NCBI GenBank assembly: GCA_949152475.1
Contig: OX424570.1
Coordinates: forward strand, 6,436,181-6,500,180
DNA: 64,000 bases
Source of the DNA: Terebella lapidaria
Lineage: Eukaryota; Annelida; Polychaeta; Terebellida; Terebellidae
Direction: 5' to 3'
Shown here: piece after piece, positions 9,101 through 53,000 of the stretch
Position numbering within the stretch: position 1 is the stretch's first letter
Layout of the letters: every line of letters starts with the position of its first letter
Made by a program: the position numbers and the translations under genes
Notes under the pieces: generated by a model
What the model saw: the letters and a program-made list of their open reading frames with translations, nothing else
The model's database searches: none
Told to the model about the DNA's origin: nothing

Positions 9101-12100
9101 CGCCAAGTATTCAGTGGGGTAACCGTGCAGTGACCGTTACAGCTGATATTTCAAGTTTATACTGTCAATTTTAAAATGTATACTTTGACTTCACTGAAAA
9201 ATATTTCACAAACTATTTTACATTCATATCTGTGAGAAAAAAGCTTTCCTATAGCTTGGTATCAGATGAGCTTTTTGCTTGTTTAAAACAAATGCAGAAT
9301 ATATTGGGAATATATCGATTTACATTTCATTCGCATGTTCTTTATCTTCGATATTATTGTAGTGCAAAATAAATTGATCAATTTAATGAAATTTGTTGGC
9401 AGTAATACTCGAACAAAAATTAACTTTGAAAAATCATATGTATTTGAAGGTGGGTCATTAGATGTTAACAATATGCATGCATATACAAATTTTAATCTTG
9501 CATGTTTTTGACATGATATATATTTTTTCTTGTGATTTCACACAATCCGGTCATGATGTGACAATATTTTGCTGGTCTTTCATGCAGAAGAATATATATT
9601 CTGTTGCGCTTTGCCAACCAAGATATGAATGGACTGCTTAAACAATGCATCATTTCCACTGCAACACATTACTTTCTTCTGAAAATATGTAAATATAATT
9701 CCCACTCGTGCCACCAGGTGGAGCCTGAGGAGGAAGAAGTAATCGAAGAAGACGTAATCTCGCTCCAGCCGATTGGGGTCGGAGTTCACGAACTGGAGCC
9801 GAACGCGACCCTGCCACGCTCGACCACACCGCGGGCGACCACCCCCTCCTTCCCCGTACAAGGTAAGGGGGATAATATCAAAAATATTGCACAAATAACG
9901 TATTTGATTTTTAGGAGACTTGATTTGATGGCTGATGGTATTATTAGGTTACCGGACCTTTGGTCCGATAACCTATTGGCATGGCGTTGCGTCCGTCTAG
10001 CCGTCCGTCCGTCCGTCCGGCGTTAACATTTTTATCTTTAAAGTTAACGATCGAATCTTTCTGAAATTTTGCACAAAAATGCCTAAAAATATTTTGAGAA
10101 GGAGGTATTTTTTTGTTTTTTGATTTTCGCATTTTTTTCAAAATGGGGGCCGTTTTTGTCGAAAAACGCTCAATTTTGGACTTTGACGGCCATTTTCTCA
10201 AAAACTGTCTGATCAGTTTTGAGTTTTTGGTTTCAAAAGATTCCCCTCATATACCTCTGTGATATGTATAAGTTTGGATGCCCTAAATCTGCCGGTTTCC
10301 GTGTGGCGGCCATTTTGAATTTTTGGCGGGTCGGCGAAAAAAAAATTTTTCGCCCCAAATCGCATTACTATCCATTTTGGGCCATTTCTAGTGCAAAAAT
10401 TTTTTTTCACCCTTTGAAAAAAATTTTGGACTTAGAAAATTTTCGGCACTTTTTCCCTTCATAATGGGAGCTGTCCGGACTGTACTCATAGAACGCTTGA
10501 AGATAGAGCTTAGAAATTGGCACTTTCAAATGGGAAGTCATATATGGCGACTTGTGTGGTGACCTTGAATTTGACCTTGGATGACCTTGAAAGGTCAAAA
10601 CAGCCATTTTTGGGTCGAAAAACGCTCAAATTTGCACCTGGTCTGTATTTTCTCAAAAACTCTCTGATAAGTTTTGAGATTTTTGCTTAAAAAGATTCCT
10701 CTTATATACCTCTGTGACGTGTATAAGTTTTGTTGCCCTTGAATCGCCGATCTCAGTGTGGCGGCCATTTTGAATTTTTGACGAGTCGGCGAAAAAAAAA
10801 TTTTCGCCCCAAATAACATTACTATCCATTTTGGGCCATTTCTAGACAAAAAATTTTTTTCACCCTTTGAAAAAAATTTTGGACTTGGAAAATTTTCGGC
10901 ACCTTTTTCCTTCATAATGGGAGCTGCCCGGACTGTACTCATAGAACGCTTAAAGATAGAGCTTAGATATTGGCACTTTCAAATGGGAAGTCATATATGG
11001 CGACTTGTGTGGTGACCTTGAATTTGACCTTGGATGACCTTGAAAGGTCAAAATAGCCATTTTTGGGTCGAAAAATGCCCAAATTTGCAGCTTTTCTGTC
11101 TTTTCTCGAAAACTGTCTGATCAGTTTTGAGATTTTCGTTTTCAGAAGATTCCCCTTATGTACCTTTATGATGTGTATAAGTTTTGTTGCCCTTGAATCA
11201 CCGGTCTCCGTGTGGCGGCCATTTTGAATTTTTGACGGGTCGACGAAAAAAAATTTTTTTGCCCCAAATTGCGTTACTATCCATTTTGGGCCATTTCTAG
11301 GCAAAAAAAAATTTTTCACCCTTTGAAAAAAATTTGGGACTTGGAAAATTTTCGGCACTTTTTTCCTTCATAATGGGAGCTGCCTAGACTGTACTCATAG
11401 AATGCTTGAAGATAGAGCTTAGAAATTAGCACTTTCAAATGGGAAGTCATATATGAAGACTTGTGTGGTGACCTTGAATTGCTCAAAAGGCTAGAAATTT
11501 AGGCTGAATAGGCCCAAAATTTAATTTTTGGTCGTTTTCCTTCAAATTTATCTGATCAGTTTTGAGATTTTTGTTATAAAACATGCTAATTGGGGTCCCT
11601 GACATTGTGTATGAAGATGGAGTGCTTTGAATTGCTTAAAAGGCCCCTTGAGTGTGTAAATTGGCCTCTACAGCCAAAAAATGTTTGTAGGTATAGCTGG
11701 AATTGGAAGTCATATACATGTATACCACATATATATGTGGCTTTTTTGGGTGACGTTGAACTTGACGTCAGATGACATTGAGTGCTATATCTCACGTCCA
11801 ACAAGAAATGTGTAAATTTCGTTTATAGACAAAAGACTTGTAGATAGACCTTGTATTTGTATTTTGAACATACATGAATACAAGGTTATATGCTGCACAC
11901 TTAATGATGACATTGAAGTTCACGAAGATGATTGGTTTATCTTAACGTCATATCTCACCTGTCCTGTTTCAACTAAAGTTGTCCGGTAACCTATCTTAGC
12001 CCTTGGGCTAATTTTTTTGTATGTGTGATGCTTTGATTGAATAATTTGCTCCACAGTAACTTTTTTTTTTCGCTTGTTTTTAGGGCAGTTCACTTCAAAC

Positions 12101-15100: not shown

Positions 15101-18100
15101 ATTGCAGTATCTTTTGAGTCGTCGTTGAGTTTTGACAATTGTTTTGAATGTATGATATATGATGTACAGATTCACAAGCTTGTTTAGTTGTGTGCAGTCG
15201 AATGATGCAGACTGTGACATTTTGAGAATGCTTTGTGAGATCTAATACAATTATCGCAAATATCGGTAGTTTCACAGATCATTCTTTTAATTTAGCTCAT
15301 AAATGTGATTTTAAGCACAGTTATCAGTTTACTGTGTATGTTCCATCTTTGATTATATTTAGACCGTTTCTTAGGTTCTCATGTCCATATACAGCATTTT
15401 ATTGGTACATGCATAGACTATAATACGTAAAATATCCCATGTACTTTACATGCAATATATTTATGGTGACTTATTGATCTGAATAATATGGAAGATTAAC
15501 CATGAATTTGGACCAATATTTCCCTTCAAATTTATCCAATGCTAATATACTTGTTTTCCCAAATAACACCTACAGGAACAACATCGCCCCTTTCTGCGAC
15601 CCTGCCCCCAAAGCAGACGGCTCCGATGACCCAGCAGCCACAGCATCACTCGGCAACCGTATCCAGGCAACAGCATTCGACCCAGCAACACGTCCAACAA
15701 CAAAACTACCAGCAGTTTTCGTCCCCACAGCAGGCGTCCAATCAAAACGCCGCACCGCAATTCAACGCCCAACCGTCCCCAGTCGTCGGCGTTGGTGGCA
15801 ATGAAATATCGCAAGTTCATGGCGGGACCGCCCTGCAGACCGCCCCAGGTGGTTACCCCCAGGGCGTATCACCACCCGAGTACAGTACGCTACAGCGGGA
15901 TCAGCAAGTACAACAGCAACAGCAGTCGTACAGTGTACAACAGAGCGTACAGAAACAGTACAGCACTGCACCTCAGACGGTCAGTGTACACGCAAAACTG
16001 CTACACAATAGAAATATTGATATACAATATCATACATTATAATGAGGGATAAACTGAAAACATTGAAATTTAATTTTTATTATTTGGAGCTAGGGGATCA
16101 TTCAAGTATTTTTTGTTGGAAGAAGTTAAAATATGCATTTTCCAAAACTTTTATAGCATCAGTATTACTATGAGTCACTATCACAGGAATTTATTAAGCG
16201 ATATTGAAAAACGCTCCTACTTTTGACTGCAGTCGCCAGGTGGCAGCATGGTGCCGGGCGGCCAGACGATCACTCAACAGAACGTCCAGCGATCGTACAC
16301 TCAGTCTGGTACGCCCCACGGGGACGGCGGCGTACAACAGCGAGAGGAGTACAGTACTCGCAGTGTACAGTACGGCGTGGACGGCAGTCATGGTGGGATG
16401 GTCGGAACTCCGCAACCTGGAGCCGTACAAAACTATCAGACAGGTTCGTGAGTACTGAGTAGATGATTACAGATTTTGTCAATATTCGACGATTGTGATG
16501 AAATTCGTATGGAAGAAAAGGTTTTCATTTTTTGACATGAAAAAATTTCAATTTGAAATTTATTCAACGAAAACATAACTATGGAAGGATATGCAAATAT
16601 TTATGTAGCTTTTGCAATCAATCTGGGCTTCTCAAAATTTTATCAAGCAGAAAACAAAATTCGTTTATGGTGTTTCTGTTACTAATAAATTTACCGATAA
16701 ATTATACTGTGTAGAAAAAACAATTTGAGTAAATTTTCTGGAATATATTTTTTGTTGTATCCAAACAGGCACACAGCAAGATAACTTCCAGCAAAGACAA
16801 GATCAAATACAACAACAGAGAATCCAGCAACAACAACAACAGCATGTTCAACAACAGCATGTTCAACAGCAGCATGTTCAACAACAGCATGTTCAACAAC
16901 AACAAAACGTTCAACAGGCTCAACAGCAGCAGTTGCAGCAACAACAACAACAGTTGCAACAACAGCAACAAATACAACAACAGCAAAGAGAACAACAATT
17001 TCACCAACAGCAACAACAACAAGAAGCATTCAACCAACAACAGCAACAGCAAAGAGAACAACAATTTCACCAACAGCAACAACAACAAGAAGCATTCAAC
17101 CAACAACAACAACAACAGTTTCACCAGCAGCACCAGACATCGTCGACCGCCGCGCACCACCAGCAGCAATTTGGCCACCAAGGCGGCGCCGTCCACAATG
17201 GCACGCTGCACGTCGACACGACTCTCCGAGGTGGCACGATGCCAAGGAGTCCCTCGTCCGCCGGCAGGTGTGTTGTGGGATGCACAAAGCTTGAAATGAA
17301 ATATTTGTATCTATAGTTTGAATGCTATCATGAATCACTTGATTTATCAGCGAATGAATTTGAAGTGACTCCAAAATGTACCTTTATTGTCAAAAAAATC
17401 ATAGACCTTTCCTTCAAAGCTAGTGGCTCGGCCTGGGAATAATAATTGTTCACAAAAATAAACTTGAGAAATATAATATACTGAGTTATAATAAAATGAA
17501 TGTAGACCAGTTCATCAACTTTTCGATCTATACAATTCAGAGATTGAAAAAAATATTGCTTTTGTTTCGTTTGCACAGTGGTGGTATCCACAGCCCACCG
17601 TCCCCCGGAAGCGTCCAGATGATACGCTCACAGCTAGCACAGGGTGGCACTATGACGCCCGGCGCCCACTCTATGACGGGCCAGAGCTCGCCTAGCGTTT
17701 ACTTCGGACAGTCACGACGCGGCAGTCTCACCTCACTGGGGGGTAAGTTTATATCTATAGGTATTACATTAGTCGGGATGGCTGCAAAAAAATATAAGTT
17801 TTGTTGGAAAACAGATCATTTTGCGTTTTTTGGCTCTTTAATGTGCCTGGTGATTTGTGGCCACCCTTTTGACGCAGATGGAAACTAAATTATTATGAGA
17901 TATGAGGGAAATAAGTATGAAAATTTATTCGTTGAAGGACTGAAGGTAAGAAATTGCAGAGTTTGTGGTCATGTTTAGAGTGACAAATGGTCGCATAATA
18001 AAAGGAACACAGAAAAGATTTTGTTTATTGCATAATGGCCGACGCCAGGAAATTACTCTGTGCAGTTGCAGAAAATTACCTCTAAGAAGATGTTGATGGT

Positions 18101-35073: not shown

Positions 35074-38000
35074 CTTCATGAGATGGTGAGCGACATTGAC
35101 ATTCACTTACTACCATTTTCAATATATCTTGACACTCATTCTCAACAACAACTACTGCAGCTTTGAGCAACTATGGGCATGAGCATTTTCATAATATGAC
35201 AAATATAGATAACTAGTGTAGGATAGATATAAAGTCTTACCATATAACAGCCAAATTACAGAATCATGAAGTACAGAAAATTCACATTTACCGTGCAATG
35301 ATTCACTGACCTTCTCGTGTGTTGACTTCTGGTTGAGGGTCATCTTCTGTTTCTGCGAGACATCAGAGACTTGTTTGACCATGACTTGTGACTTCTGCGG
35401 CCCTTTGTCTTGTGACCTCTCGATCTTGGTGGTGGACGACGACTCGCTCTGGTGTTTCGTTACCGTGACAACGGGAGGGCTCTCAGGTTGAACATCATTA
35501 GTTGACGGTGCCACTTGCCGAGTTGGAGCAGGTTTCGGTGCCTGTTGAATTTGTGGCTGGGCCTCTTTGGGTTCAGGTTTTGAGGGAGCTGAGACGGGAA
35601 CTCTAGTGGAGGATACCATCTCAATCTGCGTCGTTCTCCGCTGTGTGGTCGACTGGGTTTCCGGCGATTTTTGCACGACACTCTTCACGTCTTTCAAAAC
35701 GAAATGTTTGCCTTTTGGTGACGTTGGCTGGGAAGTTGACAGATCTGACGTAGGACTCTTCACTGTTCCCCTCGATGATGTCTTTGAGCTAGAGTCGGAA
35801 GTTGGAGAGGACACACCTGAACTGGAGTGTGATATTCTTGACTCCGCAGTTGACTGCTTCTTGTAGGCAGGGCTGTATCGTTCAGTGTTGACTGGCGGTG
35901 ATGTGGCTGGTTGTTGTCTCGGAACTTCTGTACCTTTGGATGGCTGTGACTTCTTTGTGATTGGCACGATGGTGTATGACGGTGCTTTCTCTTCAGTTGT
36001 TCTTGTTGTATTCTGAGTGGAGCTTGTTTGCACTGATGAAAATGTGTTTTGGTTTTGTGGCTTGCTTCGGATGACTGGCAACTCGAATTTAGCCTGTTTT
36101 ACAGGCTCCGAAATCTTTGGTTCATGACGTATAGCAGAAGTTTGATGTTCACTCTTCTGAGGTAGTGTTGTCTGTTGTTGCCGTTGAGTCAGAACACTTT
36201 GACTCAGCTTGAACTTATGATCCTTAGCTTCCACTGGAGCTGGCTGCCTCATGTCCACTGGCTTCCTACCATCACTGAAGTCCGTCCCAGAAATAGGTCT
36301 TGACTCGGAAAAGAACTGTGCCCGTCTAGCTGCATTGATTGCAGTCACATCTGGAGCAGAGGATCTTGTATGCGGTGGTATACCTTGGGGCCACTGGTCT
36401 TTCTCTGGTGCCTTGAAAGCAAACTCAACTTTTACTTCTTGGCCGTCCTCTGATCCCTCGAGTGGCGGCTCATGCCACGATCTCCTGTACCTTTTCTGGA
36501 TGTTCTGGTCCACTCCCTGGGAATCTTGAGTCTCTATAGTTGCAGGGTGGGTGATTTCAATCTTCTCTCCTTCCCTTGTTGTGGTATGCTTACTGATGCG
36601 AGACACCGCCCATGCCTTACTGCGATCTTCCACTGTGGCTTGCGACTCGTTGCCAGGTGGTGCATAGTATCGGCCCACGGCAGCTGGCTGTAACTGTGGC
36701 AGATCAGGCCGTTTTGGACCCTCATACCTCTGCTGTGTTACAGGTTTCTGTTCAGAGACTTGTGTAGACTGCTGAATGACTACCTTTTGATGTGTGGAAG
36801 GTTGGGCTTGGAAAGCGGGAACTGTCGGTTTCACTGGCGATGATGGCTTGCCACTGTCTTTCGGCTCGTAGGAAAGAGATGACACTCTTGTCGGTGGGGC
36901 TGGCTTCACTGAAGCCACAGGTTTTGGTTCGGCAATTTTCCTCAAGTCAGGTTTCCGGTACTGTTGGATCTCTTGTAGATGTTGTTGCCAGTGTTGGGCT
37001 CGGGGGTCCTGGGTCTGTCTTGGTTGACTTGGCTTGGTGGATTCCTGCGGTGGTCGGTCCTTGCGAGGTGCCAGGTAGCTCTGCTGTGGCGGTTGGTTAT
37101 TTTGCTGGGGCAGTTTGAAGACGAAGGTGTGAGGTGGCAGGTCTTTTGTGGCAGGTTTTGTTTCTTGCTGTGCGTAGCCCATATTTGGAGGGTAGTACTG
37201 GTTTCTATACCGTGCAGGATCTCTGTTCACGTCACGGTCGGAATTTGGATCACTGAAGCTCAAGTCATGATCACTGTCAAAGTTGCCATCGGGTGGAGAG
37301 GTGCGATGACCATCTGGTCCTGAACTGCTGTGACTAGCGTCGCTCTCACTCTGCTCCATGTAACCAGAATCTGCCGAGTGCTTCAGCAACCGCATCTTCG
37401 ACTTCATCTCATTTCGCATCTTCACGGTTCTAGGCGTCTGCTGTTTCTTTGGCTTCTGTGCATACTTTGAGTACTTTGGATTATCCGTGACCAGGTCGCC
37501 TTGTGCATTGTAGTTATCACCAAAGACGGATGCTTCAGTCAGATCTGGCGCACTCTGTGTATGAACCAGTGGCTGGCTGAAGTGCTCCACCATGTGGGCG
37601 ATACCCTTAGACAGGGAAGCTCTGTCAACATCTTTCTGTTGGTTTGGCCCAAGCGAGTGACTCCTCTCCACCTTCTGCTTGGTGTCTTTCTGTTCAGGTC
37701 TGCTCCTGGATCCTCTATCCAGCGACTGGGATCTGTTTCTCAGACTCTGACCTCCCCTCATCACGTAGTACTTGTCAGGGAGCTCTGCCACAACAGGTGA
37801 CACATCCTTTCTCAGCTGTCGATACGCCATATCGTCATGGTACTTGTCCGCTTGTTTCTCAGGTCGTATTCTCATTCTGCTCCTTGCAGCTTCTGTTGTT
37901 CTCTCATTGAGATAATCCGTTGAAGTTGGTGACTTAGTACTTAGTACCTTTGGGTCGAGGTCGACTGATCCAGGAGACTTAGCTCTTAGCATGTGACGAT

Positions 38001-41000
38001 ACCTCATGTCATCGAGGACCGCATCGGGGGTTTTCGATCGCCCCCTTCGGACGAGACTCTCTACAGATTGTGAGGGAGATACAGTAGGTGACTTCGCCAG
38101 GTAACTCATTGTCGTTGACTCTGGGAGGTCAGGTTGGCTGCCCGTACTTTGTGGACGATTACGGCGTCTGTATGCCATATCGTCTTTCACTTTCCTGGGG
38201 TAGGATGACCTGTTACCAGTTCTACTCTGCGAGGTTCCTGAATCTGAAGGGGCAGCCGGATAGTTGGCCTGGCGTTCATCTTTTGAGCTATCTGCAGCTC
38301 TTTTCCCAATTTGGTTGAAGCCAAGTTCTGAGGCTCTCGTTGAATCTTCTTCGATCCATTTCTTGGCATATTCCAGACTTGGGTTCTCCTCATTCCGCTG
38401 CAAGTCTTCCAGCATTTTCACATTGGTGATTGACAGGCGTTTGACATTTGGTGCATCAGAGTCTGAAGGGTCAAGGTTGTTGCCCTGATGTGCCTGAATT
38501 CTCGCTAGGTATTCCCGCTTTTCAGCATGCTCTATAATATCTTCGCTGTCCAAGTTGAGATTCTCGTATGTTCTCTCCAAATCAGTCAAAACGTCAAAGA
38601 TGTTGGACCTCTTCCTTGCCTGACCATCTTTATACGACACGTAGTGTAGCAGTCTCTCATCATTATCCTCATCTTGTACTGTGGAGGCAGACACCATCTG
38701 CGGCCGTGGCCCAGGTAAGGCCTGATCCTTTGCCGAGAAGATATCAGACTTCAGCTCTGATACCTTTCGCTCTGGACGGTCTAGCACCTTCTCTAGTTCT
38801 TGTTTGAAGGTGGGCTTAGTGAGAGAGTCAACATTGGAGCCAAAGAGGTTCTGTTTGATTTCTGATACACTGATCTTTGGCTGTTCCTCAGCCTCACGAA
38901 GATCATCCTTAGATCTACTCAGCTTCACCACGACTTCAGATGCCAGCTTGGGTTCGCCCTTCTCGACATGGATTTGGAGGCCATATGAGAGTGCGGACTT
39001 CTGGATGACTGGAGAATGATTGCTGTCTGAGCTACCTTTGCGATTTCTGATCACATTGGGGTCAACGTAGTCGCTGTCAAAAGACCTCTGAGACAGGAGA
39101 GTTTTATCAACATCGTCCACGCTGGAAGCTTGGGTCTGTGCCTTGTACTTCTCCTGGGTTCTTTTCACATGCTCCTCGTATTGGCTGCTGGCCCTCGACT
39201 GATGAGGTGATTTCTCATGGGGAGACGAGAGCTGCCTCTCCAGCGGAATAGTGGACATCTGTGGCTTCTCCTTGCAGTAGGTCTGAACCTTCTCATCATA
39301 AGTTTTGAATGGTTGTTTTTGTTTCTGTGATGCTTTGTTATCTGCAACGGCTACAATAGCAAAAGACCTAGTTAGATCTTTCTGCTGTTCGGTAGCTGGT
39401 TGGTTTGACTTCAATTGGGTTGACTGTTCTTGACTTCTCAATGGTTTCATTGCATCAACTTCATTGATTCTACTGCTCCATGACTTGTGCATGACTTCAC
39501 TGCTTCTATCGCTCTCCGGTTTGCGGTATGCCTTATCTGGCATGACAGGATGCTGAGCAGGTTGCATGTCCTTGTTCACTTTGGGAAGATGATCATAGGA
39601 ACTCGACATGAGCTGAGTTTGGTACCGTGACTGTTTCGTCTGAGGGTATGCTTGGTCCTGCACTTCCCACCGCAGTGGTTGATCAGACTTCGGTGGAGTT
39701 TTTGGTGGACCAGGCTGATCTCTATCCAAGTTGTGTCCTGAATAAGGCTTGGGATTCTTCTCTCTATACCTCACTCCATCTTTCAGGAACTGGAAGTCTT
39801 CTTGTGAGCGCCAGTCCTTCATCCCCTCGTGCCGACTTGGATGCAGGGAATCACCTGTATCTAACTTGGACTGTGGGCCAAGATCATAGAAAGTAGAAGA
39901 GGCAGGTCGCCTATTCTCCTTACCCTCTGATGGGGCCAAATTCCTCGGCTGCACTTGGTGGTCTGACTGGGTGTCACTCAAACTAGGACTAGACGCTAGC
40001 ATACCCTGTGGAGTCAGTCGCAGGACTAAACCATACTCCTCATGTCTGGGCGACTGCACTTCACCATGTAGCATCTTATTCTGGATCTGGTGTAGTTCAG
40101 TCTGTGATTTGCTGATTGGAGTGAGTCTCTCTGGTTTAGGAGGAGCAGTCTTTAGTTCCTGACGTCTGTCGACCCACACTGAGTCATCCTTCTGCTTCGG
40201 CTGCGGATGATCTCCGTCTTCTCTGTCATACATTGTGTTGTAGTTCCAGTGAGATGGTTCTTGAGGAGTGAAGTCTTCCCGCTTTGGCATGGGTGGCTTG
40301 GCGGAGACCTGCACAACTTCTGTAGTTTGATAGTTTGGTCTTTGTGTAACCGGTTTCTGTTTTCGCTGATGTTTCAACTCAGCATGTACTGATTGGAGTT
40401 TCTCAAAGATCTTCATCTTATCATCAACAGATCTCCATTCATCTTCTTGACTCTTATCTTGTGAAGAAGGAGTGAGGTCAACTTGGGTTGAATGTGTCAC
40501 TGGTGGAACCCGGGAACTTTCTGGTATTTTAAACTGCGGCATATATCTCTGGTCTTTTGCAGGTTTTTCTGGAATCACGACCTCAGATTTGAAGCTGGTT
40601 GTTCCCTGTGGCTTGCCGAGACTAGAACTCTTCTGGCTCCCTGGGAAGTACTGATCGAGTTCTCGGGAACTCTCCGTTGATAGTTGAGAAGCACTTCTCT
40701 CATGTTGGATATGCAGTGGCAAATGCAGAGAGTGCGTGAAGTTCCCCGGGGGTGGTACCGGTGAAGATTGCATGGGCTGTGTCAGGTATGTTTGTTGACG
40801 TCCCGGTGCTGACTTTCGTTGATCCAATGATGCTGCTTTCTTGGACTCCTGTGGGCTGTAGCTGGGCGGTGTTTCCGCGTAGAATGCATCTTGGCGTTTG
40901 TGGTGTATTTTCCGCAGGATATACTCGTAATCATCTGGTGGGATGATCCTTGACCTGTGCTCTCGATGCTGCTCATCACCACTGGTTCCGCTTGTGCTCT

Positions 41001-44000
41001 CACGTTCCGACAATTTCCGAGCGTATGCTCTCTTGTAGTCTTCAAATTTCTTCTGTTCTTCTTCCATGAGAACCTTGGCATCATAGTTCTTCTTGGCCAC
41101 CTCTTTCTCCGGCATTGGAACATTCTCGTTGTATTTGTGTAGTGGCTTTGGAACATACCACACTGGGCTTGTAGGGGTGACAGGTTGTGAGCCGTCAGAT
41201 TTTGAATCTTGCGGCTGGCATTTCAACCTTGTCAGATTATCCCTGGGTCTTTGGTTTTGAGCTGAATTCAAGGGAGCACTTGGCAATGCTTGTTCTGTAG
41301 ATTGTCTCTGCTTGTTCACATAAGACTCAAAGATCTGTGTTGCTGTTGCCTGGATAGATGCTCGACTCTGTTCCTGGCGATTCTTCTCTTGGCGTAGCTT
41401 GTTGAGGCGTTGTCTCGCTTCGATCAAGTTCTGCCTCATGTACTGATTAACATCAACCTTCTCACCATGTGGTGAATCAACGGACAAGTCCACAGCATCA
41501 TAGATATTCTCGAAAGATGAACTGATGTTCTTGTAATCCTCAAGAGCCATGCGTTGGTCCTGTCCAGGTTGATAAAAACCTTGAGACTCGATACTTCGAT
41601 CTGGATCGTCTTCCAAGCTGAGGAAGTCAAACTGTGACCTTTGACCTTGTCGCTGTTGTCCTTGACCTTGACCTTGCCTTCCTGGGGAAGTCTTCAAGGG
41701 TTTCACTACATGTGGCGAGAGTCTAGTGTTCTGTATGGCACTAACCCTTGGAGACAAGTCACTCTGGATCCTGGCAGATCGACCCTGTTCCTCGTACCTA
41801 ATATCTTCCTGAGAATATGTTCGACCTGGTCCCAGTTGGGACGCAGGTTTATCTCCGTGTTTCCTTGCGTCTTTCCTTCTAGACAGAGCGAGGCTTTCCT
41901 CCGATGTACTCTCTAGTGCTCGCCTTCTCCTCTGGAGCTCTTGAAACTGTTCCAGCTTCTCTTGAACCAAGTCACTGTTGTGTCGAACATTTGTTTTGAC
42001 TGACTTTCCGTTTGACTGTGTGGGGTTGCTCATGCGACGAGGGGAACGTCTATTTCTAGGAGAGTTGAGTTTTTTACGAAGGCTCGGACTCTCGAACCCT
42101 TGTTTGAACTTCCCAGTCGCCAAATCCTCATCTGCAGTGTCATTCAGTGCATTGCCGCGTATCTCTTGTGACAGCCTTCTCTCTGAACGCTTTTTTCTGC
42201 GTACATGCAGTGGGTTTTTCCGCCAAACCTTCGGAATATCATCTCCAGAACTTGAATCGGTCCCATCCTCTTCCAAATCACTTCTTGGTCTGAGTTTTCC
42301 ATTGACAACCTCTGTTTCCATGGTAATATCATCAGTGTCTACATGTCGCAGCCAGTCTTCCTCAATGTAGCACCGCTTGAAGGCCCGTTTTTCGCCTGAG
42401 CCCTTTCTTGTGAAGAGAATGCCGACGTCGAAGTCATGGATGTCCGGGAAGAAGTGATGTGTGTTCCAGTCGTATCGTCTGCGGTTGGAGCAAGGGTGCT
42501 GGCTGTGGTAACTGTCACCGTGGGACTTCAAGCTGTCCTCAGCACTCTGCAAAACACAAAGAAAAGGAAGGAAACATTACTTTTTGGCTATAATACTTTG
42601 TACATTGTATTGACATATTCAATACAAAATATATGAAACCGAATGATCAAATATTGACTTCAGTGAAGGCCATTATGGGACATCATTAATTTTTACTTTG
42701 TAAGATATACTGATGATAGAACCCACAAACTATGATGTATGAAATTTTTGCAGAGAACATAATCCATTAAAATTGCCGACCCCAGCCACAAGAAACCTTC
42801 AATATTGAACATAAAAGATGTTTGCCGGAGAGGCGACTGATGACAAAAAGTGACCTTGAATAGTAGTGATTAGCTGTCATCTCAAGAGTCAAATATCACT
42901 CGGAAGAACAGGTCTTTACATAGAATTTTTATCTTGCACTCTGAACAGTGATGGGACATATTTTGTCAGGGCTGATAATGTGACTATGTGGCATTGTACG
43001 TGTTGTACCGAACATACAATGTACATAATACATGACAGTATAATATACTAGTCGAATACAAAACCTCAAGATTTCAAAAGAGACACATAGGAAGAAATAT
43101 TTCATAGACATCTAGAACAAAAATATTCAAATATAATTGAGCTACCTGTATGTAATTAGCAAAAGCTCCGATGGTTATCATCCTTCCTGTTCTTAGTATC
43201 TTATTAACTTCATAATATTGACATTTGATGGACTTGGCAAGTATACAGCAAGATTACGACCATGAGCGAACTATCAGATAGACTACACTGCAATAATAAG
43301 ATTTTACCCATGATCCAGTAGGATATAAGATTATACTTCCTGGCAAAATAAGCATTCGTTCTAACATTATCATACGAGGCGAAAAGTAATTGTACCAAAT
43401 TGTTCCAAACACAATATAAGTTACTCCAACTAAGCAATAAATCTGATTTTTGACACACAAAACAGCACTAGTTTTTCAGATAGGATTAATGTATTTCATT
43501 TGGATTTGAATGGGATGATTCAAGACATAGGTTCAGCTTTTCCTTTAATTTTTTTTCACTGCACTTTATGTTCAAACATGCGAAACACATGAGCCATTGC
43601 TTCAAAGAAAACAGAAGTTAAATCAGCAAACAGTCGATATATAAACAGAAATAGTAGAAGTGTTAATCTCGAACAACCTTGAAGTCTGAAATCAAACAAA
43701 CGGGCGATTTATTGACTGACAACCAAAGATTTGCTGTGAGTATTTCCTTTTTATCTTCTTTGAATCTGTTTGTGCTGTTTCATTCAGGGCTATAAAAATA
43801 TTCCTAAACATTTGTGAACTGCAGTAAATCTTGCATTTGTAAAAATTGGGCAGAAATACATTGATATATATATATTATTACACAATTTATTATCAACATC
43901 GTTAACAAAGTTTATATGTTTATAACACAAATCTGTGTATTAACTTCTATTTGGTAAACTCCTGATTATTTTTTTTGCTTGAGGAGAAGTCTGTAGTACT

Positions 44001-47000
44001 ACCATGTATGATAACAAGTTGAGTTTTAAACATAAATAGCCTAAACTCTACATATTCCATTACAGTGTCTAGATAATAATATTTACGATCTGTCAGCTTC
44101 TCTGGCAATAGTACGGTGGCTCATATTCGCCAGATGGAGGAATGCACTTTTTTCTTTACAGCGTTATAACGCTGTAATACAGCGTTATAACGCTGTAATA
44201 CAGCGTAATAACGCTCTAATTTACAGCGTAATAACGCTCTAATTTACAGCGTAATAACGCTCTAATTTACAGCGTAATTACGCTCTAATACAGCGTTATA
44301 TCACTGTAATACAGCGTATTAACGCTGTAAATTAAAGCGTAATTACGCTGTAAATTAAAGCGTTATTACGCTCTATTACAGCGTTATAACGCTCTAATTT
44401 ATAGCGTAATTACGCTTTAATTTACAGCGTAATTAAGCTCTAATTACAGCGTTATTACGCTGTAATTTAGGCGTTATTACGCTGTAAATTACAGCGTTAT
44501 AACGCTCTAATTTACAGCGTAATTACAGCGTTATAACGCTCTAATACAGCGTAATAACGCTGTAATTAGAGTGTAATTACGCTCTAATTACAGTGTTATT
44601 ACGCTGTAATTTACAGCGTAATTACGCTCTAATTACAGCGTTATAACGCTCTAATACAGCGTAATAACGCTCTAATTAGAGTGTAATTACGCTGTAAATT
44701 AGAGCGTTATAACGCTGTAATTTACAGCGTTATAACGCTCTATTACAGCGTAATAACGCTGTAATTAGAGCGTAATTACGCTGTAAATTACAGCGTTATA
44801 ACGCTCTAATTTACACTGCCAGAGACATCATCGGACCTGCTAGTTCATCAGCTCAATCATTTGTAGGGAAATCTCAAAATTATTCTGATCTAGATATGTT
44901 TATTACAAATCACAATAATGGAAATATGCTAGGAAGGTGAACGGTTTAATTTAGAGCGTAATAACGCTCTAAAATAGAGCGTTATAACGCTCTAAATTAG
45001 AGCGTTATAACGCTGTATTACAGCGTTATTACACTGTAATTACAAATTTGTGGTCCTCTGTGTGGCGAATATGAGCTTCCGTACAATAGAGTAACTCCAG
45101 AGATAAGCTAAAACAAAAATAAATTGGATAAAAAGAACTTCTAACCTTGGCAACCGTTTAAAAGAAAAACAGATCCCAACCTTTGCCCCATTACTACCAC
45201 AAATTGACAAATACCTGAACCCCCTCCTCCCCCCCCCCCCCCCCCTCACTCTAAACTACAAATATTAACTGTCCAACCTGACACCCCTATAAATTTGTTT
45301 GACACCCAACAGCTGCACAAACTTTGCATATTTCAATGACTACTGACAGTGAAATTCCAGGGCAGCCTATGTTTGGGGAGAGTCCATTTCTTTGAAAGAC
45401 AAAGGGGGGTCAGGGCTGGAGACTTTTTGCCAACTACTAGTATAAGCTTGCATTTATTAAATCCAGGGTGCAATACACAAGTTTATACATTTAAAAATTG
45501 ACATTAACTCGAATGCTTGGGAGTTTTACAAATCACCAAGGTCAAAATTACACAGTCCCAAATTTGTAAATTCCTGTAAACATATCAGTTGTCAGTCTGG
45601 AAAACTATTTTGCAATTTGGCAAAAAGTGAATTCCATTGTTTTACTATGAAAAAACCTGTTTGGATCTCAAGTCAAGTGTGCTGTCATTCAAATAAATCA
45701 AAATTAATTGTCTGTGAGATAAAAGTTAATCAAAGAAATATAAATCTTCCCCTGTCCAAATTCCACTCCATATACTGCTATAAATGATATCAAATTCCAG
45801 AAATGTGTTTGGAAATTGCAGAAAGGGCGGGTATATTTTCATGCCATTATCATAAAGTTTCGAATATAAGTCTCTTTGCATTTTGTGGGGGAATTTTCGG
45901 TGTTGAAAGTACAATAAATCAACAAGGCTTGAAACTGTCATGGCCAATAGTGATTGTTTAGTACAAGTGAATGAAGGGATAGGGTGGGTGAGGTAGAGAA
46001 TTTTTTGGGGGGAGGAGGGGGTAGGGGGGGGGGGGGGCAGTGCTTGGGTGTACCTAGAAGCATGTGGCAACTGTATTAATGATAACATTACAAAGATCAC
46101 ACCCCTCCACCCCCCCCCCCCCCCCCCCAAGTATTTACAGCTGTCCATGGCAATATATACACTGTACTGTACTGATCTGTTACCATGGCAACTGTGATAA
46201 CAGTTTGCAGGGATAGGGCACTGATGAACCTGCTTAGAAAAATGCTTCAACAGCCCATTACATCATAATCCCCATGGTATGATAACCCCACCCACCCCCA
46301 AATCACATTTCCCCCTCCCTATTTGTCTGATTAATTCCCATACTGAGCCACTGACTAATCCATAGATAACTCTGTTTACTTTCCCTGTTTTAGAAACCCA
46401 AATGGATTAGGTTGTGTTTAAATAGGATGCATAGATGTTTCTCAATTTGGACTTCACAGCTGAGACCGAAACAATTTATTTCTTCTAAACTAATCGATTT
46501 AATTTGCAATGTTATGGAAACGAAAAGAACAAAAATCCAGTGTTACAACTTGTTTTTTTCTACATTAATTTTCTGAGAATCATTTATAATCCAACAGAAA
46601 TATTTGTAAATATTTCTTTTTACTGACGAGTAGATTCTAAATTGCATTTTTCAGGTTAAAAAAGCTATCCTAAACTTCTGTTCGATAACATTTAACTTCT
46701 TCTATAAAATGTTGTGCACCATGTTGCACCCATGAAATATGATATAGACTGTACTAACATCTAAAACTCTTAGTAAAGTTTACTTTTATTCTCCAACCAT
46801 ATGTATTTAATGCCAATTGAAACGATTCTGTAAAATTAAATTCTTTCTCTGGCAAGTCTACTTCTGTACCATTTTATCAGTGAGATGAGTCTAAAACTTC
46901 CATTGCAGACAACCGAGAATCCAACAGAAATAATCATTATATCAATGCACCAGTATTTAGACATTATAATTTATACAATGGCCTCAAGTTTGTTGAATAC

Positions 47001-50000
47001 CTACACTTTGTAAACTGGCCTTCCGGTGTTTTTTCCCCATTTTTTCATGCCCTTCGGCTTCCAATTTCTTTGCAGTCTAAATCCAGACTGAACAATTAAA
47101 TGGGAAGAAACCTCTTGTATTTATCTCTACAGTCTATCCGTTAGTCTATATATACAAGGAAATCTCAAAACTGGCTCTTGAGGTTAATTTTATACAGCTA
47201 TTAACAGAAACTGCACAATTGGAAGTAGATGGCATAATTAATGCGTAAAATTATCATATATTTCATGTTCAAGTACCGGTAACGTATTTGTGAAATATGA
47301 TTCTATTGATGAGAATAAGGTCGTCTATTCATTGTGTGAATTGCTTGGTAAGCTAAAATTAGTTTTTAAAACTCATAATTCATGAAAGCTGGCTGAAGGA
47401 TAAATCCAGATCACCTTTGCTGACGAAACCAATACCTTGGCACAACGTGTATTTCCAAATTTAGCCTGCAATCTGGAATACATTCAGCATGGCCCGAACC
47501 ATGCAACTGGTCTGGTCTTTCACCTTTTTTCCCCCTACTAATGATGTAAACGTCAGCAAAAAACCTGGCTAAATTTGTGGCGGAGCAAGATAACTTAAAC
47601 ATAAACATTCGTCAAAAATTCTCTAGGATGATTTTTGCATTTGTTTGCGTTTTTAATCTTTACCTGGCGCAGTTTTTTAACCGCATCTTCAACATCTTGT
47701 TGCGAAAGCTCTTCCAGCACACTTTTAACATGACTGCTTGATGTTTTTTCCTCGCTTTTTGCGCGTTTACGTTTTCTCTCAAATGTCGAAAGGTTCACCT
47801 CATCTCCAATATCCGTCGATTCAATATTCAAAATGGCTGCCATTGATCCAGGAGTTATCAACTTTTTGTCAGGTTCAGATTTAGTGTCTGGAGATGTATC
47901 CTGGGTGGGTTTGGATTTGGTTTTGGTATCCATGGCAATAGTTTTTTCACTAGACTTGGTCTTTTCCTCTTGCTTTTTCTCTTTTTGAGCATCTTTTACA
48001 ATATCCAAAGTTCTTTTCTTCAGAACAACATCATCTTCTTCCTGATCTTGATCCCCTTGAATGTTTATGACATCAATTTGTCGTTTCTGCGTTGTCATAG
48101 TTTTTCTAGTCACTTGACCAGTGAGAACTCCAGATTGCGATATCATGTTCAGTTTGTCAGCCATTGACATTTCTGTAGCGCTTTCTGATGGTGGAACTTT
48201 GCCCTGCATTGAAGGCTTCAATGCTCCAGTTCCTGCCTGGAATGGCAGAGGTGGTTGCCTTGACAACTGCTCATCAAAATAAGTATCAGAAAGTTCATCG
48301 TCTAAGTCAGTATTCATGACGAAGGTACGTTCAGAGTCCTCAGTGAAATCTGTATCAGCGTATTCCTCCCAGGGGGGATCGGGACACGACGGGTCATAGG
48401 CAGCAGTCGCTCCACTTTCATCCCCATGGTCACTGTTGTCCCTAGCAACGGGTGTGGTCCTATCATCAGTCTCCATGACGGTTGAAGAAACTTGCTCGGT
48501 TTCAACTGCAGTTACATCCAACTGTTCCACAGATCCAGATGGAGTGTCATGTGACTCAGGCTCGTCTTTTGACCTGATTTCTAGGCTGAGGTCAATAAGT
48601 GCATCACTTTCAACATCTGCTAGTGGTGCTAATGTTGAATTCCGACTTTCGTTGGATTGTGTGTCTGCTCCGACTCCCTGCTCCGTTACATGTGAGCGAT
48701 CATCGTCATATTGCACGCCTTGACTGTCGATCGCTGAATTATCGACAGATTTCTCCGGAAACCCGGCTGTTGAATCACCATGGCAACCGTCGCGCCCCGC
48801 CCCCACTCCCTGCACTGAGTCTGATGTATCTTTATCACTTTTTCTCGTTTCCATTGATTCATCTTTTTCTGGCAATGACTCAGGTGTTTTACTTTCAGAT
48901 ATAAGTTTTTTCGAGGCAGTATCCAGTTCGACACTGGGTTCCCCCTCGGCCTCCCGATCTGTTTGTTGTTTTTCTGGTGGCGGGCTCGCAAGGGCAACGC
49001 ATGTGTTTTGACCTGGGCTTCCATCCATACTTGTTGCCTTGGGTTCTCTGCTATCGTCTGGCATTGCCTTCTGTTGAGAATCACCGCAATTTGTTGATGT
49101 TTCTGAAGGCGAAGCCCCTAACCCTGCAGTTTCTATGGCACCGCCGGTCTCTTCCAAACCATCATCCGAAGAACTCAAACTCCATGAATCTTCGGAACTT
49201 TCCGCAGAACTTGAACTGCTCGTGAACGAATCCATGCTTGCAACTTCCCCCGAAACTTTTTTTTGATCCTTTGGTTTCAAGTGTTCATCCGCACAGGTGC
49301 TACCCTTCGTTGTTACACTAGCATCGTCTACTGTCCAATCTGGATCAGTTGATCCTGAATCCACCACACCTGACAATTTGCCAGCAACCTCCAGAGATAT
49401 ATCACACGTAATTAACTCCTGTTGGGAAACAAGTTGTCCATCGTTAGCGGCGCTTGTCGAAACTTTCTTTGCAAAGTCCGAAAACTTTACCCCAATGTTT
49501 CCCCCTTGCACAAGGTCAGAAGAATCAAGCAATCCTTTCGTTCTATCTCCAGTGGCCAGGAGTTCAGTCCCTGTCAATATCCCTGCATCTTGTACACTTT
49601 GCTGCTGTCCAGTGGACGCTACAGTCGGCCCTTTTGTTTTATATACATCAGTTTTCCATGCACTGCTCCCCTGCCCTACATTTGGCACACGTCCACCCTC
49701 CTTTTTATGCGTGTCCCCTCCACCATGAAATTTTTGTGCATTTTCACTGCAACTGCCACCATCATCTTTGATTACAGTTTGCCCTTGTTCACTGGTTTCC
49801 ACGGCTGACGGTTTTACTGGGCCAGACTTTGCAGACTGCAATATCCCTGTGTTTGCTGATCCGGATGAACTAGATTTTTTGCTGGATGGTGGATCCACCA
49901 CACGTTCAGTTGCCGTGGCTACATTGATGCCCTGCGGTGTGGCTTGACCTAGCTCCCCGTGCAGCTTCAATAATTGATCACGGATATGACAGGGGGCCTC

Positions 50001-53000
50001 TGGAGCTTCGCCTGGCGATAGGAGCTGATATCTTGAAGCTAGATCCAGATCGTGGCATTTATCATCGCTCTTCTCTGGCCGTGTATCATGACTCCAGCTC
50101 GGATCTTCTCTATGTTTATGGGGTGGGCTTTTTGGCTGGGCACTCTCCACTGTAACAGGATCCAGACTTTGGCTTGATAGCTGTCCCTCCACAGCCCCAC
50201 CCCCCTGATCTCCCGGGGTGGGGGTGGGTGCAATAGGTGGGGGTAGGGGGAGGGATGTGGGGGGTGGCAGACGCTGCCCGGCAAGGGTATGCTCTTTGTC
50301 AGTGACTGGGGCATGAGCCAAGGTCACGGTGGATTGCTCACTTAGGTGTGTGCTTGGTTCTGTGGATTGTCCCCAGGGGGCAGTTTGCTCCAGTTCGTGC
50401 TTGCTGGGAACACTGCTGCCACCTGTAGTCAGCAATGGAAAGCTCGCCCCTACTTTCTGCTTGGTTAGTATAGGGGGCAGCACTGTGTGGGAGGCTAGGT
50501 GGAGCTGGTGTCCAGGTTGATCCCTAGGTGTCAGGACTGAGTCAAGTAATGTTTTTGGCGCACCAACTTTCACGTCTTCACTTTCATTTATGTTCACATT
50601 TTCTTTGTCTGCTTCGAATTTTACACTTTTGTTTTCAGTTTCTGGGGAATCCATATTGTCTAATTCTTCCATTGAACACAAGGGGGCTACTGTTCCAATA
50701 GGTTCCCTCCGGATTCCCTCATTCTCAATCTGCCCGAAGTGTACATGTTTCTGTTGTTTCACTGGACCGAGATCCAACTTTTCTTGTAGCGATCTCTTCT
50801 CTGCTGCCAGGGTGTCACTTCCCTTGACAAGAATTGGCTTTAGAAAAGGCGGTGCACCAGGTAATCTCTCAGCAATGGAACCTTCCTCCATCATGTCCAC
50901 TGGCAAAGATTTTGCAGCCGCAGCTCCCGATGACGCTGATGCTGAAGAAGCAGATGAAGAAGATGAAGAAGAGGAAGACGAGGTCTGTCTCTGTACCTGC
51001 TGTGACGAAGACGACTTTTTCTGCTGGTGACCACCCCCAGGAGCAGACGATGCCACTACCGTTGAGCTTGACTTGTTGTCTGAGGACGAATGCTTGCTGT
51101 GTTGGTCACGTGATGACTGTTTGACAAGTCCTGATGGGTCGACTTTCACAGATGAACTACTCTGTGACAGATCCTTACTTTCAGTTGATTCTGCCTTAGT
51201 GTCCGACTGGCTGATCATTCGGCCATCATTCGTTGTAGCCGTGATATTTGATTGACTTTCTTTTGATTGTTTTTTGTCTGTCCCTTCAACTCTAGTTTTG
51301 TCGTGATGTAAAACCCCGCTCTCTTCTGTGTGACTGCACTCGGCTTCCTTGACCTTGGTCCGGCTGGTTTGTTGATCTGTTTCCATGGTTTCCTGCCTCA
51401 GCTGATCACCGCTTTCCTCAGTAACGACCTTGACCTTGCTCTGTTCAGTACCGTCCGATTTCTCGCTGTCGTACTCAGAAAGTCTCTGTCGTTTGATGAC
51501 GTCTTCTTCTTTGGTCTCCTCCTGAATTTTTTCCTGGAAATTCTCCAAATCAGAAGTTGATTTTTTATCTGATTTTTCTTCTACGACGTTCGTCAAAGAT
51601 AGGTCGCCATCTGGTGACTGAACTTGTAAGTCAGTATCCTCAACGCTTTCCGACCCTTCCACATGTACACGTTTATGACTGGATTTGACATCCTGGTTTC
51701 TGACGGTGCCCATGCCGTGTGGTGACACGATTTCCTTGGTATGATCAATGACTTCTTTTGACTCCTTCTCTGTGTGGTCATCATATTCCGTGACTTTGAA
51801 ATGTGTCACAGCATCTGACTTCACTGCACCGTATTCTGGGTCTAACGCAACACGCACACCCTCCCTAGTGACACTGTCACCATGGCAACCCTCGGAATCC
51901 TTCTTATACCTGGTGACATCATCCGTTTCCATGGAAACCTCTCCCGTGCGTTTATTCACTTTGAAAGTCACTTCCTGCTCATGGGTTTCATCTTCGTCCC
52001 CGTCCTTGCTACAGTGGCTCCCTCTACTTTCAACTTCCATCGTGTCCGCTTGTGGGTGCTGCCCTCTACAGGAATCGCTTGCAGTACCATCTCCGTCGTC
52101 TGTAGCAAGCGTGTCACGAGAATCACTACGACTCAATGAATTCGCGGTGTCGCCACTGTACTGCGATTCTGTCCCATACGCAGAGTCGGTATCCGTTAGC
52201 GACCCGAGGCTGTTACAGCGGTCGCTCGTCATTCCCTCTTGAGACATTTTGTATCTGGTTGTCAGTTACTATTGGAAGGTATTCCTGGCTGACATATTTC
52301 CAAATGTGTACTGTTAGTGTAGAAAGTTGTATTGAGAAGTTTGTGTAGAGAACATTATCCAGTGCTCCTTATATCCATTGAGTTCTCATAAATATTGTGT
52401 CCGGGTTTTGTTGTCATGTTGGAAAACCATACAAACATGTGAAATCCATTTGCAGAGTAAAACAATAATTGTTTGACAAGCGAGTTTTATGATAATTTTT
52501 CATTCCTACTGTTTCAAGTACGACATTTAGGGTCCACCATGTGATTGTTTTTCCTGCACAAACTTTCTAGCAAATAATGACAAAGGTTTTTCAACGCATT
52601 ATCCATTTTTGCACTGCTACATCCAATGGCTCCCTCCAATGAAATGACTGGGGTGGAAAAAATCCGCAAAAACTTGATACGTCTTTCCCAGGAGGCCCCA
52701 CTGTTGCTTACGTTTTTTTCACTGTTGTAATAAGGAGCGCTGATACATGAAACACAGATAGTGAACACATCTTCCTCAAAAGAAACAACTGGGGTGGCCC
52801 CTAGGGCATTATAAATCCAATGTGGTGGAGTGAGGGGGGGGGGGTGTATTTTGATGTGGGTGGGTGGGTGAGTTACTCCGATAGGTCTGTCTTGTTTACT
52901 GTATCACCAATGATACGTTTGCCGTTTGTTGTCTACCAAACTCAAGTATCGTAGTTAGCATGATTGCTTGCATACTGGATCTGCGGTTGCGATCCAATCC

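Follow-up and report, generated by a model that had tools for sequence, protein, structure and literature searches.

The stretch of DNA analysed here (64,000 nucleotides, hereafter the window) sits in contig C17 of a 761.6-Mb genome of 438 contigs. It contains at 44112-45083 a gene-less DNA transposon of animal type, about 1 kb in length (972 bp), most of which is formed by about 35 short palindromes. CAATAG flanks the element on both sides, and the originally predicted interval of 44106-45089 spans the element together with both of these duplications, the element proper being the shorter interval. The parts of the element are as follows.

44106..44111, no strand: target-site duplication CAATAG, left (read from the sequence)
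44112..44132, plus strand: 21-bp terminal inverted repeat (TIR), TG type, TACGGTGGCTCATATTCGCCA (pattern search, window and genome)
44133..44156, plus strand: left subterminal stretch, beginning GATGGAGGAATGCAC (sequence; subterminal comparison of ends)
44157..44808, no strand: main array, 29 palindromic sites of type TASAGCGTWATWACGCTSTA (motif matches, sites at 44160-44805)
44809..44951, plus strand: non-repetitive spacer, 143 bp (sequence; step lengths in 34 pairs)
44952..45038, no strand: second short array, 4 sites (motif matches, sites at 44955-45035)
45039..45062, minus strand: right subterminal stretch, beginning CACAGAGGACCACAAATTTG from the tip inward (sequence; subterminal comparison of ends)
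45063..45083, minus strand: 21-bp TIR, AA type, TACGGAAGCTCATATTCGCCA (pattern search)
45084..45089, no strand: target-site duplication CAATAG, right (read from the sequence)

The inverted 21-bp ends and the 6-bp duplication are present as first described, the two ends being identical at 19 of 21 positions and differing at positions 6-7 (TG on the left versus AA on the right). With up to three mismatches allowed, the end pattern has only these two matches in the window and none in 100 shuffles, while all 33 matches to AGCGTTATAACGCT (also with up to three mismatches) fall within the element, compared with a shuffle mean of 1.37 and a largest shuffle count of 4. These controls exclude chance for both the ends and the units. 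The palindromic units form two blocks, of 29 and 4, flanking the 143-bp spacer, and a partial unit near 44515 accounts for the difference from the earlier count of some 34. To call the element almost wholly palindrome, as was done originally, is a slight overstatement, as 33 sites of 20 bp amount to 660 of its 972 bp. The proposal that the array reads the same in both directions holds approximately: over query 112-708 the array and its reverse complement are 85% alike, while the unit types show no clear mirrored order (judged in copy L001 only, with a best antidiagonal of 19.7/22 over 6 pairs versus a median of 18.5). Folded as a single strand, the element reaches -349 kcal/mol, and 20 shuffles average -122 (sd 4.6). 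The two inverted ends, nearly identical, are just 21 bp long, yet the body is self-complementary throughout. Growth of the array out of the TIR was considered and rejected, the similarity between them being no higher than in shuffles (p = 0.88 and 0.91).

No frame of at least 170 aa overlaps the window copy, which is flanked by two minus-strand open frames (from a list of those of at least 170 aa), one ending at 42576 and the other starting at 45726. Very long open frames of 2474 and 1556 aa occupy the minus strand of the window at 35152-42576 and 47595-52265. Five window frames, including these two, had no Pfam match at E 0.001, and the window had no Rfam match at gathering score. The window also contains a 453-bp tandem repeat at 10158-11480 (2.9 copies, 90% alike) and CAA/CAG-rich repeats at 16834-17132, which translate as a glutamine-rich frame (195 aa).

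Copies and target sites across the genome

The TACGG-ended copies that the original prediction proposed to search for are abundant. With at most one mismatch, the end pattern occurs 810 times in the genome (400 and 410 times on the two strands), and a reversed-pattern control gave none. Exact ends number 653, with A beside the tip at 60, C at 287, G at 214 and T at 92; the count with G or C in this place (501/653), tested against an assumed proportion of 0.40, speaks for a target preference. Positions for exact ends with C or G beside the tip came from the first 100 places of each list. On contig C1, the 100 listed exact ends (to 91.43 Mb) comprise 38 neighbouring convergent pairs with a median length of 1008 bp, and 24 unpaired ends; 34 of the 38 pairs join a TG with an AA end, in orientations numbering 16 and 18.

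We read 45 end pairings, of which 11 were left out of the main count (pairs other than TG/AA and the rearranged L074 locus), leaving 34 in a non-random sample, drawn from the top BLAST matches, from the first part of C1 and from a single class of TIR context. The 6-bp duplication is perfect in 25 of these 34 TG/AA pairs, has one mismatch in 6 and two mismatches in 2, and is out of register in 1 (L019, with six mismatches at 6 bp, where by eye there is a perfect 7-bp GTGTCAG); its sequence varies by site. Random re-pairing of all 45 pairings gave a mean of 0.67 perfect duplications versus the 25 observed, among which L010 and L012, both in the 34 pairs, represent one duplicated locus. With this duplicate removed, the 24 perfect sites show a preference for a palindromic target, SW|SWWWWS|WS, with a mean of 8.4 matches out of 10 versus 5.1 expected. 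Dispersed copies with common TIRs, a duplication of fixed length that varies by site, and the lack of a transposase gene are features of non-autonomous (MITE-like) TIR DNA transposons; the first two are found here, and the copies whose frames were read show no transposase-like frame. At L010 and L012 (C1:3981065 and C1:3991103), a copy and its flanks are duplicated about 10 kb apart with the same target-site duplication, and at L042 a copy is inserted in the terminal repeat of another copy, with a CATATT duplication derived from that repeat.

The spacer carries 6.7 private variants per 1000 letters (22 copies), and this rate points to a recent spread of the element, an age estimate that is biased to young copies, since some of them were selected for being top hits or for having exact ends.

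Inheritance and possible roles of the palindrome array

The original prediction held that the array is moved as a unit with the transposon, and ordered strings of units common to copies on different contigs bear this out. In the 34 pairs, 1046 units follow the site TASAGCGTWATWACGCTSTA, and 961 of 1012 unit-to-unit steps measure 21-23 bp, with a further 28 steps of 163-164 bp corresponding, as judged by length, to the 143-bp spacer. Between L001 and L006, which lie on different contigs, 32 units align, 25 of them identically, with an identity of 0.976 versus 0.857 all-against-all, and in each of seven further copies compared the aligned identity was likewise above its own all-against-all value. 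As the same ordered unit string occurs on different contigs, the array travels with the element. Array length was also to be compared between copies, and it ranges from 4 to 52 units in the 34 pairs, the unit strings of different loci differing by whole-unit insertions and deletions. Together with the shared strings, this indicates that the array was already inside the spreading ancestor and that it changes in length by units, possibly through slippage, unequal exchange or gap repair helped by its self-complementarity.

The element had further been proposed as a source of dispersed satellite, and this part of the prediction is not supported on C1 up to 91.43 Mb. A 30-base seed from the array has 298 exact places in the genome, and for this check we used those 50 of the first 100 listed that lie on C1, to 91.43 Mb. 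They form 36 clusters. An exact end stands no more than 921 bp away from 35 of these; the 36th (L098) has the spacer of the element and is truncated on both sides, with no end in the 1.2 kb read. Satellite DNA with long free arrays was therefore rejected for C1 to 91.43 Mb, the lone cluster lacking an end being a truncated copy. The longest array read (L069, at least 61 units) has both ends of an element, 1.7 kb apart. The array is integral to the element at both ends and is not a satellite into which it landed by chance. Were the palindromes primarily a satellite, of which a piece was merely captured by a transposon, their satellite-like tandem repetition would be accounted for, but we regard this as most improbable in view of the C1 clusters and of the four larger classes of ends, which differ in subterminal DNA and all carry the array.

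The ends, the duplications, the movement of the array with the element and the lack of free satellite on C1 lead us to consider it probable that this is a DNA transposon about 1 kb long that is non-autonomous, with TACGG ends and a 6-bp staggered palindromic target, mobilized by a transposase from elsewhere. Such an enzyme would recognize the TACGG inverted ends, excise the element and join it to its target (SW|SWWWWS|WS) with a 6-bp stagger, presumably by cut-and-paste transposition of the IS3EU/GingerRoot type.

As a supplement to this non-autonomous transposon model rather than a replacement for it, the array might serve as a functional platform, in which each 20-bp palindrome is bound by the transposase or a host protein as a dimer, the sites being about two helical turns apart and their large number leading to better spread. 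We advance this tentatively. Of 99 distinct ends, 92 have their first unit 42-53 bp in from the tip (among the remaining 7, two lack any unit over 420 bp and five have it at another distance), and the four subterminal-sequence classes with at least two ends (53, 28, 7 and 2 of 99) carry one site consensus, singletons being noisier. One consensus shared by four classes and by both kinds of end, at a nearly fixed offset, favours a platform, as do the regular steps and the uniformity of the units, in which variants above 10% are confined to four mirrored S or W places, followed by changes at two CpG at no more than 5%. A homogenised young array would, however, give equally uniform units. Compared with the spacer and subterminal DNA (13:30), the site core has a lower ratio of shared to private variants (6:37), but this difference, from 22 of the 34 copies picked by length, is not significant (Fisher p = 0.12). 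Also against a platform, the end is no more unit-like than shuffles, so that one protein need not bind both, and in a relative that shares the ends (L031 = L051) just 3 weak units are present, the first 420 bp from its left tip being free of them. Whether the array is a passenger or a platform is a close call, with a passenger somewhat more likely. We are doubtful of the full form of the proposal, in which the body would consist of about 35 dimeric protein-binding palindromes, kept by selection as an array that recruits a transposase or host factor and thereby causes the spread; if true, it would make the element an array-driven parasite of another element.

Retention of the units for hairpin or cruciform formation is not favoured, and we judge it quite improbable. 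The strong single-strand folding agrees with it, and pairs within the 14-bp core are mostly complementary, the central W pair at 0.570 versus 0.502 when shuffled. The outer S pair, in contrast, is complementary in 320 of the 928 units that have C or G at each outer place, versus about 458 expected from letter counts, and distinct 22-mers agree with this deficit (0.331 versus 0.445).

Search for a transposase and superfamily assignment

A coding partner with an IS3EU transposase had been suggested, and none was found among the frames read. Integrase-core profiles were used to look for an autonomous partner with an IS3/IS481-related DDE transposase. Searches with the NF033577 profile gave 67 scored matches, none above the cut-off, and those with PF13683 gave 150, many of them in very long frames. 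Eight of the NF033577 loci contained no palindrome unit and no paired end, and L089, L093 and L096, the three matches with frames read, were rejected as partners, their frames being by eye those of LTR-retrotransposon pol. By eye, no transposase partner was seen in 19 scanned loci whose TIR ends have A or T as the adjoining base, nothing transposase-like in the frames of three long copies, and no transposase frame in the interiors of ten ends without a mate in the locus, where the longest frame is 207 aa (L034). These results hold for the loci read; the genome also has wider-spaced end pairs, such as C2:39902093-39909501 (7.4 kb), C4:8357616-8369262, C4:43095796-43099689 and C2:26525248-26528879.

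The long pairs L039, L040 and L097, which by eye also have no transposase frame, are composites of about 3 kb with a Helentron-like insert containing tandem repeats of about 150 bp (by eye), the insert of L040 being partly different from the others. Those of L039 and L097 have a common right end with a hairpin resembling that of a Helentron. L039 and L040 have perfect target-site duplications, whereas the two copies flanking L097 differ at two positions. The left junction between array and insert is present 14 times in the genome, 9 times exactly and 5 times with a single mismatch, which indicates that the composite has multiplied, most simply via the element's own ends, as judged from the three composites read. 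Helitrons and Helentrons are not known to make a target-site duplication or to have a TIR. A Helitron or Helentron identity for the element itself was rejected on account of its TIRs and 6-bp duplications.

Since the loci read yielded no transposase bounded by such ends, the enzyme and its superfamily are inferred. The TA..TA termini (TACGG...CCGTA) and the 6-bp target-site duplications are consistent with IS3EU/GingerRoot, and to this extent the termini make the predicted IS3EU affiliation plausible. Other superfamilies, for instance a hAT group or Dada, also have 6-bp duplications, and the element could belong to one of them instead. How long the duplication is and which few bases stand at the tips are weak guides to classification, and profile searches found no transposase, both of which leave room for this alternative. 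We nevertheless think it unlikely, as extracts of the published description (PMC10045372) give TA..TA termini always and 6-bp duplications usually for complete IS3EU families, with GingerRoot being similar.

Relation to known repeat-bearing elements

A literature search by title and start of abstract returned no paper describing this element, and the only match to the string GCGTTATAACGC among the papers searched was one on E. coli fimbriae. The tandem-repeat MITEs of Donax are reportedly mobile elements with a short tandem array as well, from which the present element differs in its short TIRs, 6-bp duplication and short palindromic unit.

The following comparisons draw on extracts of the cited papers. 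IS3EU and GingerRoot (PMC10045372) share with the element the TA..TA termini and 6-bp duplications and differ from it in that here there is an internal palindrome array and no transposase was found, the likeness being to the published description and not to Repbase entries. Tetris, a foldback transposon of Drosophila virilis (PMC4079207), is also a DNA transposon with no coding capacity, and the copy number of its internal tandem repeats varies too. Its TIRs are up to 1,735 bp long, its repeats about 220 bp and its duplications 8-10 bp, and it seeded satellite arrays of kilobase size, whereas the element described here has short ends, palindromic units of 20-23 bp and no free array on C1 to 91.43 Mb. 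A foldback element has long inverted arms with its repeats in mirrored order; here the near-identical ends measure 21 bp, and in L001, the copy examined for this, no mirrored order stands out clearly. The tandem-repeat Helitrons and Helentrons of oyster (PMC8268682) likewise hold a short tandem array and spread it as they move; the differences lie in the short TIRs, the 6-bp duplication and the short palindrome as unit. TCAST10 of Tribolium (PMC5844308) is a repeat family linked to IS3EU, with a second half 86% similar to an IS3EU transposon, but its repeat is 486 nt long and the extracted account mentions no palindrome array.

Alongside these systems, the present family shows clearly how a TIR transposon can carry a tandem palindrome array as a standing component, here at hundreds of sites. 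Its unit strings act as bar codes by which growth and loss of the array can be traced copy by copy, and the family permits asking if arrays of this kind are mere passengers or serve as binding platforms.
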